Of a DNA stretch of 64,000 nucleotides, positions 1,643 to 3,566 are shown in pieces. The notes under the pieces are model-generated. The model was not told the DNA's origin. It did no database searches and worked only from the letters and a program-made list of their open reading frames with translations. How positions within the stretch are numbered: the first letter of the stretch is position 1; the number at the start of each line of letters is the position of its first letter. Source of the stretch: Methylobacterium bullatum (GTDB lineage Bacteria; Pseudomonadota; Alphaproteobacteria; Rhizobiales; Beijerinckiaceae); NCBI GenBank assembly GCA_902712845.1, contig LR743504.1:1896001-1960000 (forward strand), given 5' to 3'. The translations under genes and the position numbers were made by a program.

Positions 1643-1677
1643 CGACTGGGCGCGGTTCCGGCCTGACCGCGCAGTGC

Positions 1678-1710
1678 GGTCGGTGGCGGGGTCAGGCCCC
1701 GCCGCCGACC
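1678..1710. terminator. 14-bp stem hairpin between convergent genes
   Basis: GGTCGGTGGCGGGG (1678-1691) pairs with CCCCGCCGCCGACC (1697-1710) around a five-base loop, with one G-T wobble. It separates cobO from the convergent gene at 1692. The stop codon of the minus-strand gene lies in the loop. There is no T tract on either side, so it is either a GC-type bidirectional terminator or a transcript-end stabiliser. Confidence 0.55.
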
Positions 1711-2342
1711 GGCTGATTCTCGTGGAGGACGAGCTTCAACGTGGCGACGAAATCCTCCAGGGCGGCGGGATCGAGGTCTCGCTGCAGTGCCCCGTGGGCG
1801 ACGGCGTTGCGCAGGCTCGCGATGGGGCGAAGCCGATCCGCCTCGTCGGGCGTCACGATGCCTTCGCCCGCGAGTTGTTCGATCAGCCGTGCGGGCGATT
1901 GAGATTGCGACAGGCGGTCTGGAATCAAGGCCCGCCCGATGGCTTCGAAGGTCGACCAGCCAAGCAGCAGAGCGGCTTCCATCTGGCCGGTCGCGATGAG
2001 GGTCTCGACCTTCGCGATCGTGCGGTCGATGATGTCGAGCGTCACGCGGTCGATGGCGGGTACGCCGCCGCCGGAGCGGGCGTAGTAGATCCGAAGCTCC
2101 CAATCGGCCACACCGAGGAAGCGGTCCGCGACCTTTTCCTGGCTTCCCGATCGCGAGCCATCCCGCACGATCTCGATGGCGAGATTCTTGGGTTTTCCGA
2201 GCGCAATCGCGTCGGGAACGTAGTCGCCCATGAAGGAGGGCAGAAGCTGACGTGAAGGGTGAGTATAGACCTCGTAGCCGGCATCCGTGAGTGCCGGGAT
2301 GATAAGGTCGAGGACCGGCCCTTCTGATTCCATACCGCTCAT
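1692..2342 (-). CDS. PD-(D/E)xK-like nuclease domain fused to a HEPN-like domain
   Basis: This 216-residue protein is not a family I can name with certainty. The N-terminal part (about 10-90) looks like a restriction-endonuclease-type fold: GYEVYTHPSR, then PDAIAL with Asp44, a strand, and AIEIVRD with Glu57. The usual Lys of ExK is not at the standard place. The C-terminal part (about 100-205) is helical and contains RNAVAH at residues 178-183, matching the RNxxxH active-site motif of HEPN domains, which are often RNases in defence systems. The start overlaps the stop of the RusA-like gene upstream (ATGA at 2339-2342), so the two are made together. The pair interrupts a cobalamin gene region. 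Domain reading is by eye; function is inference. Confidence 0.6.
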   Translation of the reverse strand: MSGMESEGPVLDLIIPALTDAGYEVYTHPSRQLLPSFMGDYVPDAIALGKPKNLAIEIVRDGSRSGSQEKVADRFLGVADWELRIYYARSGGGVPAIDRVTLDIIDRTIAKVETLIATGQMEAALLLGWSTFEAIGRALIPDRLSQSQSPARLIEQLAGEGIVTPDEADRLRPIASLRNAVAHGALQRDLDPAALEDFVATLKLVLHENQPVGGGA

Positions 2343-2785
2343 GCCAGTTCCTCGAAGGGATCGTCCGAGAGTCTTACGTATAGAATCGGCTTCTGTGCCG
2401 ACAGCGCCGCCGCCAGGACGGGGCTCGGCTGCGTGAACGAAAACACCCGCTGCGGTTCGAACTTCTGGATGACCACCCGTTCGATCTGAGAATCATCCAT
2501 GTAGATGTGCTGGTTGAGGGCATCGAGGACCAATTTGACGATATTGTCCACGTCGCCCTGTACGGGGCCGACCGGGAAGTAGAACAGCGTCACGGCGAGT
2601 TTGCCCTCGCAGGCGAAGTGGTTCTCGGGCAAGGAGCCGTCGCTTGCCGCTCGGACCTTCTGCTTCCACTGCGATTTGGAACTCGGTCGGGCCGATTGGA
2701 ACGAGACCGGTGTGCCGCTGACGAGGAACTCGATGGGAAAGATGAGCTCCACGAGAGATCGCCTGGTGTCGCGGGCTTCGGTCAC
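2339..2785 (-). CDS. RusA-family Holliday junction resolvase-like protein
   Basis: The central segment GDVDNIVKLVLDAL followed by YMDDSQI matches the RusA family, in which Asp-x-Asp and a Lys four residues on, plus a later Asp, form the active site. With the GTG start at 2785 these are Asp78, Asp80, Lys84 and Asp97/98, in about 148 residues; E. coli RusA has about 120. A longer frame reaches back to 2944 but would run through the divergent gene at 2820. A second GTG at 2752 is also possible, and neither has a clear Shine-Dalgarno sequence. RusA proteins cut four-way DNA junctions and are often phage-borne, but no phage genes are seen nearby. The overlap with the nuclease-HEPN gene suggests a joint role. 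Confidence 0.78.
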   Translation of the reverse strand: MTEARDTRRSLVELIFPIEFLVSGTPVSFQSARPSSKSQWKQKVRAASDGSLPENHFACEGKLAVTLFYFPVGPVQGDVDNIVKLVLDALNQHIYMDDSQIERVVIQKFEPQRVFSFTQPSPVLAAALSAQKPILYVRLSDDPFEELA

Positions 2786-2819
2786 GCAACTTATGCACGG
2801 CTTCGTCCGCGTGTATAGG

Positions 2820-3566
2820 ATGCCGAGAAATCGCTTTCTGATTGTGGCCCGTCGTGGCTTTCGGCGTTGCCTCGTTCCTCTCGCGGTTCTTTTGTCCGGC
2901 GCCGGTGCGGCCTCCGCGCAGTCCGGTGCATCCTGGCCGGACACCTATCTCGGCCGCGTCGAGGCGCTGGCGGTGATGGAGGGGCTGAACGCACGGCTCC
3001 TGGCGAGCCGCAGCGCCACGGCGACCCTCGAGGGCTGGTGCTCCGAGCACGGCATGGCGACCGACCCACGGCTGACGGCGACCCTCTTGCGCGACGTGGA
3101 CAAGCCGGCATCGGAAGAGACGCGGCGCCGCCTCGCCGCCGGACCTGAAACCGTCCTGAGATACCGCCGCGTCCGGCTCGCTTGTGGCGATCACGTCCTG
3201 TCCGAGGCGGACAATTGGTATGTGCCGGAGCGGCTGAACCCGGAGATGAACCGCCTGCTGGAGACGACTGATACGCCGTTCGGCAGGGCGGTCCAGGCGC
3301 TCGGCACGACCCGCCAGACCATCGGGGCGGACCGTCTCTGGCAGCCGCTGCCGCCCGGTTGGGACCAGGCGGTCCCGCCCGATCCCGCCTGCGCGCCGCT
3401 CGTGATTCCGGATCGGCTATTCAGCCATCGCGCCGTGCTGTTCACGGCCGAGCGGGTGCCGTTCTCGGAGGTGGTCGAGACCTACGCCTCCGCCATCCTC
3501 GATTTCCGCCGAGCCGTGCGGCCGCCCGATCCCGCCTGCGGCGCCGGCCCGCCGTCGCGGCCCTGA
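2820..3566 (+). CDS. Exported protein with chorismate-lyase-like fold
   Basis: A 248-residue protein with a signal peptide (basic start, hydrophobic core, cleavage near GAASAQ at about 29-34). The mature part follows the pattern of UbiC-type chorismate lyases: a strand RYRRVRLACG, then the W-Y-V-P turn (DNWYVPERL), then DTPFGRAVQAL and TRQTI, and a final pair of strands around RAVLFTAERVPFSEVVETY. UbiC is cytoplasmic and makes 4-hydroxybenzoate for ubiquinone; export argues against that role here. ATG 2820 is chosen because it gives the signal peptide; in-frame sequence upstream overlaps the divergent RusA-like gene. The fold is a by-eye call and the substrate is unknown. Confidence 0.6.
   Translation: MPRNRFLIVARRGFRRCLVPLAVLLSGAGAASAQSGASWPDTYLGRVEALAVMEGLNARLLASRSATATLEGWCSEHGMATDPRLTATLLRDVDKPASEETRRRLAAGPETVLRYRRVRLACGDHVLSEADNWYVPERLNPEMNRLLETTDTPFGRAVQALGTTRQTIGADRLWQPLPPGWDQAVPPDPACAPLVIPDRLFSHRAVLFTAERVPFSEVVETYASAILDFRRAVRPPDPACGAGPPSRP

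Follow-up and report, generated by a model that had tools for sequence, protein, structure and literature searches.

A RusA-type resolvase gene paired with a REase-HEPN fusion gene in Methylobacterium bullatum and other Alphaproteobacteria: a candidate anti-invader module

The gene pair and its surroundings

The window, a stretch of 64,000 nucleotides from a Methylobacterium bullatum genome of 4.84 Mb in three contigs, carries inside its cobalamin cluster two minus-strand genes (window 1692-2752) that together occupy about 1.06 kb (Table 1). The upstream gene encodes a RusA-type protein, and the second a fusion of an archaeal Holliday junction resolvase-like (AHJR-like) REase domain and a HEPN domain. 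The RusA gene ends at 2339 and the ATG of the fusion gene lies at 2342, so that the two have an ATGA in common, exactly as described in the initial annotation. The same annotation had set the limits of the pair at 1692..2785; the pair stands, but its right-hand border probably does not. The RusA start is most likely the GTG at 2752 rather than the one further upstream at 2785, because in a near-identical copy (G403) a TGA lies in frame three codons ahead of the former GTG; the earliest possible RusA start in several other loci (e.g., L024, L026, L037, and L038) leads to the same length of 137 amino acids and likewise speaks for 2752.

To the left of the pair lie cobU and cobO; the right side has a gene that no Pfam family matches, followed by cobQ and the gene of an MFS transporter. 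The identities of cobU, cobO, and cobQ were confirmed by Pfam; the pair lies between cobO and cobQ, with the unmatched gene on the plus strand (approximately 2820-3566) as a correction to the initial annotation. In relatives with an empty site, the homologue of this gene directly overlaps cobO, and the first approximately 15 residues of the window version are unmatched there. No transposase or integrase was found among five window neighbours checked by Pfam, and no MNT antitoxin gene among the window neighbours checked (RusA, cobO, and the gene without a Pfam match).

Table 1. Features of the RusA and REase-HEPN gene pair in window coordinates
Feature	Position	Strand	Remarks
RusA-type Holliday junction resolvase gene	2339..2752	-	137 aa, GTG start; Pfam RusA 4e-12
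ATGA overlap: RusA stop / second-gene start	2339..2342	-	From ORF sequence
AHJR-like REase / HEPN fusion gene	1692..2342	-	216 aa; Pfam AHJR-like 4e-12, HepT-like under its cut-off
Archaeal Hjc-like REase domain, residues 7-92	2067..2324	-	D44 and E57 present; catalytic Lys replaced by V59
HEPN domain, residues 97-216	1695..2054	-	R178-N-A-V-A-H183
Approximate extent of DNA present here and lacking at empty sites	1643..2819	.	Comparison with empty cobO loci

Conserved and variable parts of the two proteins

Proteins of the RusA family are dimeric junction resolvases, and the E. coli and phage enzymes (PF05866) share with the protein encoded here both the fold and the catalytic D-x-D-N-x2-K motif, which reads GDVDNIVK in the window. 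The protein scores 47.2 bits against the Pfam RusA model (cut-off 22.8), and its AlphaFold2 model (pLDDT 92.5) finds E. coli RusA as the best Foldseek match (1q8r, E 3e-5, TMt 0.77), at approximately 12% identity in the structural alignment; the sequence profile reached the solved RusA structure 1q8r at an E-value of only 0.46, and a single-sequence search of the PDB gave no match. With residues numbered from the 2785 start, D78, D80, N81, K84, and D88 are kept in 87/87 sequences, D98 in 86/87, and D97 in 82/87. Judging from dN/dS values of 0.02-0.10 among three distinct sequences (window, M. bullatum, and Leaf91), which are based on 1 to 5 amino-acid changes, RusA is under purifying selection.

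Residues 19-94 of the fusion protein match the Pfam AHJR-like REase family (PF18743) with 46.2 bits against a cut-off of 26.1, and the HEPN part stays under the cut-offs of Pfam HepT-like (19.6 bits; cut-off 23.5) and of the NCBIfam HepT equivalog (21.6 bits; cut-off 60). The AlphaFold2 model (pLDDT 89.4) contains predicted REase and HEPN folds, the latter as a helical bundle. A profile search of the PDB matched Hjc and HepT, a single-sequence search returned only weak, chance-like matches to other proteins, and Foldseek with the whole model found nothing at E ≤ 0.001, its top match (0.0013) being a HEPN chain. The fold of the HEPN domain is closest to HepT, with AbiV also among the fold matches. 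The residues expected at the two putative active sites are P43-D44 and E57 in the REase domain and R178-NAVA-H183 in the HEPN domain. The initial annotation, which had named an intact RusA motif, a PD-(D/E)xK-like domain with Asp44 and Glu57, and a HEPN-like domain with RNAVAH, and had made its case depend on a structure prediction with REase and HEPN folds, holds on the first and last of these motifs and on both folds; the PD-(D/E)xK-like domain is present too, but its active site is non-canonical, because the catalytic lysine of the (D/E)xK triad is lacking.

Conservation is distributed unevenly over the pair. R178 and H183 of the HEPN domain are kept in 84/84 readable sequences and D44 of the REase domain is invariant, with E57 present in 70 of 77 sequences. 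The ExK position, by comparison, holds K in 23/77 and R in 3/77 sequences and has neither in 51/77; in a second alignment, K occurs in 26/86 and R in 6/86. The window itself reads E57-I-V59, leaving the D...ExK triad incomplete, and its REase domain is by these residues probably not a canonical DNase. Near-invariant HEPN and RusA residues beside a variable ExK lysine argue that selection maintains the junction nuclease and the RNase but acts less strictly on the lysine of the REase. The fusion protein as a whole is diverse (mean column identity 37%) and, from dN/dS values of 0.13-0.17 for the same three distinct sequences, is likewise under purifying selection. The alignment of 77 rows (A4) consists of 76 of the 80 loci of the RusA scan described below plus the window, leaving out L027 (without the fusion gene), L055 and L081 (cut), and L072 (not given), and a further alignment (A5) holds 61/80 loci plus the window. 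Two diverged pairs (L153 and L154, from genomes G452 and G460) have a fusion gene in which the profile match stops before the HEPN motif; that of G452, a minor lineage, has kept a canonical E-I-K REase motif and lost the R-N-x3-H motif, and that of G460 is known from its profile match alone.

Linkage, distribution, and genomic context

RusA and the fusion gene form a real, tightly coupled two-gene unit. When an alignment of RusA only was searched against the species-genome collection, the fusion gene followed directly downstream in 79/80 loci (the best 80 of 102 relatives), which excludes chance pairing. One locus (L081) is cut by a contig end, and the sole exception among these best 80 of 102 relatives is a Defluviicoccus contig (L027) with an intact RusA gene and no fusion gene behind it; as these loci were found by the intact RusA motif, broken RusA genes are under-counted among them. 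Searches with each protein alone retrieved the same 6 of 72,556 plasmid records. Coming from the fusion side, a survey of the order matched 14/397 genomes, 10 of them strongly, with RusA upstream in 10/10 strong matches (two broken) and in 0/4 weak ones. A survey of the phylum matched 30/398 genomes, with RusA beside all five full-length fusion genes, including one from another class (G548), and the other 25 matching in the HEPN part only, with no RusA within the fetched stretch; three genomes (G000, G196, and G287) count in both surveys. At class level, the Pfam REase family was found in 6/289 genomes, four of them, the window included, with both genes and one (L214) a weak match with neither gene by profiles. 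At the remaining locus of that survey (L213, genome G1073), the REase part of the REase-HEPN fusion is degenerate, and the profile found no RusA in the 3.2 kb of sequence fetched.

The arrangement of the two genes is equally constant. A possible fusion start lies exactly at a 4-nt overlap in 62/85 pairs and at a 1-nt overlap in 20/85 (82/85 in total), a count of possible starts, since the one nearest the overlap was taken wherever there were several candidates; the genes overlap in three annotated plasmid records as well. Trees of RusA and the fusion protein (window plus 83 loci) agree with r 0.78, a value that 0/1000 permutations reached and that fits host descent as well as co-inheritance. 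Loci less than 50% identical had a common gene among the five nearest on each side in 16/2269 comparisons (69 loci), compared with 32/77 comparisons between loci at least 50% identical, and the unit is accordingly the two genes, as diverged loci rarely have a further nearby gene in common. In one sublineage (L018, L017, L021, and L083), a related gene lies downstream of the pair; in L017, the gene after the pair is convergent and encodes a HATPase_c_3 protein of 644 amino acids. Genome G477 (L137 and L156) has a pair at cobO and a second, diverged RusA-fusion pair at another site. The initial annotation had proposed that a DNA-junction nuclease is coupled in one unit with another nuclease-fold domain and a putative RNase domain, and had asked for linkage outside close relatives; both expectations are borne out by the surveys, which found the linked pair in numerous genera of Alphaproteobacteria and in a single genome from a different class.

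Among the best 80 of 102 relatives, the nearest named ones are M. bullatum and Methylobacterium sp. Leaf91, with 98% and 97% RusA identity, respectively. Presence within the genus is patchy, with a RusA match in 24/111 genomes, 18 of which have both genes intact by profile span; of the other six, three combine a broken RusA with an intact fusion, two have both genes broken, and one (G448) has a weak RusA match and no fusion gene. Taking the searches together, a frameshift or stop interrupts RusA but not the adjoining fusion gene in G404, G405, G196, and G333, neither gene is intact in G398 and G426, the RusA of G402 has a stop close to its end, and an intact RusA without a fusion was seen once (L027), in a tally in which some RusA frameshifts may be draft errors and the search routes catch broken genes unequally. 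An intact pair is found in Caulobacter vibrioides DSM 9893 (L088). Among 14 well-known control genomes, only that of C. vibrioides matches the Pfam REase family, L088 being a different record.

Among 30 cobO loci fetched (of 110 genomes with cobO), 27 lack the pair and three (window, G403, and G444) have it after cobO, the pair sequences of G403 and G444 not differing from those in M. bullatum L022 and Leaf91 L023. G442, with a 98% identical CobO, has no pair, and there cobO runs at its stop codon into the start of the gene that follows; the same overlap occurs in 5/6 empty loci inspected, the sixth (L107) having other DNA there. Methylobacterium J-026 has the pair at the same cobO site with 58% (RusA) and 50% (fusion) identity, as do G456, G402, and G477, judged by where cobO and RusA lie. 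In the tree, the window group is joined by J-026 in a single clade (support 0.985), and five other Methylobacterium copies branch elsewhere, scattered among distant alphaproteobacteria, which speaks for horizontal transfer. Two records stand apart. L016 (NZ_LR743510.1), a 2.83-Mb record labelled M. bullatum plasmid 1, has cobO, the pair, and cobQ on board and may be a mislabelled piece of chromosome. L037, a 3.6-kb contig of a Myxococcota MAG, holds a pair whose RusA is 58% identical to that of the window, and its placement in Myxococcota may be a binning error.

Whether such genes sit near known defence genes, as the initial annotation had wished to see surveyed, received a divided answer. 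PADLOC gave 13 names besides the generic mad2 and mad3 among 260 flanking genes (AbiEi, Hydrolase, ZorA, ZorB, HTH_VI, HEC-01A, Control_protein, MTase_II, oMTase, PD-Lambda-3_B, Aga_HEPN, PDC-M27C, and DrmD) and none besides mad3 among 109 control genes (20 chosen stretches in nine genomes). The sample comprised 260/329 flanking genes from 71/83 loci after removal of loci with fusion proteins at least 80% alike. We take the excess as a hint only, because families and not proteins were counted, the comparison set is small, and ZorA and ZorB are ambiguous, as models that bear the labels MotA/ExbB/TolQ and MotB may also match everyday motor proteins; MTase_II and oMTase are probably one protein. 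Pfam, run on 130 of the flanking genes, pointed the other way: in the 25 of 96 families listed, the genes are mostly ordinary and include two integrases and one HEPN/Toprim gene. The plasmid copies are similarly mixed: that of Rhizobium T136 has AbiE genes upstream and Mrr endonuclease and UvrD-like genes downstream, that of the Ti plasmid pTi_CFBP2177 adjoins ligD, ImuA, and two error-prone polymerase genes, and that of an Azospirillum plasmid has ordinary genes around it.

Possible functions and relation to known systems

With confidence about evenly balanced, we read the pair as an accessory, horizontally spread two-gene candidate anti-invader module that couples recognition of branched DNA to an RNase effector. 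Two junction-resolvase folds and one RNase fold make RNA cutting triggered at branched DNA the simplest common theme. RusA would recognise and cut branched DNA of a replicating or recombining phage or plasmid, and the Hjc-like domain would guide the fusion protein to the same kind of DNA, serving, in the copies that lack the ExK lysine (most of them, the window included), probably as a mainly DNA-binding or weak nuclease part. The HEPN domain would be the effector which, once engaged, probably together with RusA, cuts RNA and halts growth of the infected cell. We infer a physical complex of the two proteins as well as its substrate, its activation, and its anti-phage outcome. The persistence of intact fusion genes beside broken RusA genes, with the reverse seen once, suggests that the fusion protein is not toxic in the absence of RusA, and RusA accordingly fits better as an activator than as an antitoxin, although it could simply decay first. 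Further points against an anti-invader role are the ordinary Pfam neighbours and the position of the window copy inside a cobalamin cluster, the company of ligD, ImuA, and error-prone polymerases on pTi_CFBP2177, which would suit repair, and the modest profile evidence (HEPN scores that by themselves fall under curated cut-offs and the E-value of 0.46 between the RusA profile and 1q8r). G1073 with a fusion and no RusA, L027 with RusA and no fusion, and G452 with its lost HEPN motif also weigh on this side. A more specific version, which we hold only tentatively, is a junction-sensing immune module in which RusA, recruited from recombination, acts as sensor and activator of the HEPN RNase. There, the trigger would be the branch structure of the DNA and not its sequence, its modification, or a phage protein; RusA cutting may form part of the signal, and the Hjc-derived domain would be the DNA-binding part in most copies.

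The same folds could serve the cell's own DNA. In an accessory repair or recombination module, which we consider rather unlikely, RusA would resolve the junctions that arise when forks stall or break, and the fusion protein would bind to them as well, with the HEPN domain clearing RNA (e.g., transcripts or R-loop RNA) or acting as a checkpoint. Two independent junction-resolvase folds within one operon fit this well, as does the pTi_CFBP2177 neighbourhood, but the very patchy presence in genus and order (RusA in 24/111 genomes; the fusion in 14/397, 10 strong) and the diversity of the fusion protein do not, and a near-invariant HEPN RNase motif is hard to account for by repair alone. That motif also bears on dual-nuclease restriction, in which RusA and the REase would destroy incoming branched or replicating DNA and HEPN would be merely structural or dimerising. 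The invariant catalytic residues of RusA, together with the invariant D44 and frequent E57 of the REase, are what such a system would need; loss of K or R at the ExK position in 51/77 sequences beside an invariant HEPN R and H is the reverse of its prediction, and diverged loci have no additional gene in common (e.g., for a modification enzyme). We regard it as unlikely.

An improbable reading is that of a toxin-antitoxin pair, with the HEPN fusion as toxin and RusA as antitoxin, as in HepT with MntA. The layout, in which a HEPN gene is preceded by a small gene that overlaps it, and the closeness of the HEPN fold to HepT recall such systems, but RusA retains a full nuclease active site, four genomes (G404, G405, G196, and G333) keep an intact fusion beside a frameshifted or stop-interrupted RusA (draft errors being possible), and none of 77 sequences has, at H+2, the tyrosine that completes the R-x4-H-x-Y motif of HepT. 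That tyrosine is AMPylated in HepT. An antitoxin role for RusA was rejected as the main reading on the ground that the fusion stays intact beside broken RusA. Finally, RusA genes are common in phages, and the protein matches PHROG families, so the pair might be a domesticated remnant, a prophage-derived RusA kept by chance next to a HEPN gene. This is highly improbable in view of purifying selection, near-constant pairing, and the searches of viral sequences, in which neither protein matched any of 50,697 phage records at E 1e-5 and IMG/VR, queried with one pattern per protein, yielded no fusion and five distant, generic RusA matches, with no HEPN gene in the stretches fetched around them. Phage origin or carriage is disfavoured on the same absence of both proteins from phage records and of the fusion from IMG/VR viral contigs.

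The fusion architecture is already in print, and the pairing with RusA is apparently unnamed within our literature and PADLOC searches. The available text of Anantharaman et al. 2013 (PMC3710099) describes HEPN-M/DUF86 domains occasionally fused to MNT or to an AHJR-like REase, and the second protein here fits the latter architecture; the RusA partner present here is absent from the main text of that paper. RusA and AHJR are likewise missing from the accessible text of PMC7159879, RusA from that of PMC12839542, and RusA, resolvase, and Holliday from the main text of PMC13092281. No paper naming both RusA and HEPN came up, and a wider search for RusA as a partner of HepT, defence, or toxin-antitoxin genes found none, judged by titles and the openings of abstracts among the papers listed, in a literature in which subscription papers and bioRxiv preprints were thinly covered, so the negative is no proof of novelty. 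PADLOC-DB 2.0.0 has no family that matches either protein at E up to 1. The earlier statement that no named system has this pair therefore agrees with both searches.

Several known systems share parts of the pair. HepT-MntA has the same HEPN fold and R-x4-H core (HepT R102, H107, and Y109 are named in PDB titles) but differs in its H-x-Y tyrosine and its MNT gene, neither of which is found here, MNT being judged among the window neighbours checked; the fusion adds a REase domain, has RusA as its partner, and scores far below the NCBIfam HepT cut-off. Compared with E. coli and phage RusA, the RusA described here is tied to a HEPN partner gene and was not found in phage records. Archaeal Hjc shares the REase core and the P-D...E positions, whereas the lysine is lost here and in about two thirds of the relatives and the domain is fused to HEPN. 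Anti-phage HEPN effectors such as AbiV and DS-11, the latter with CBS-HEPN (PMC13092281, in its available text), join a HEPN RNase to a regulatory or sensing part, as would the pair here, and their sensing parts differ from those found here.

The pair is a real and apparently undescribed variant of HEPN-based conflict modules, with a putative function. It offers a compact, near-constant, and apparently unnamed combination across Alphaproteobacteria, including the easily handled Caulobacter vibrioides. If branched DNA activates the RNase, bacterial RusA genes would gain a role beyond prophage recombination, and a new trigger would join the signals read by bacterial immunity; even if the pair served in repair, the linkage of a resolvase to an RNase would be unexpected.
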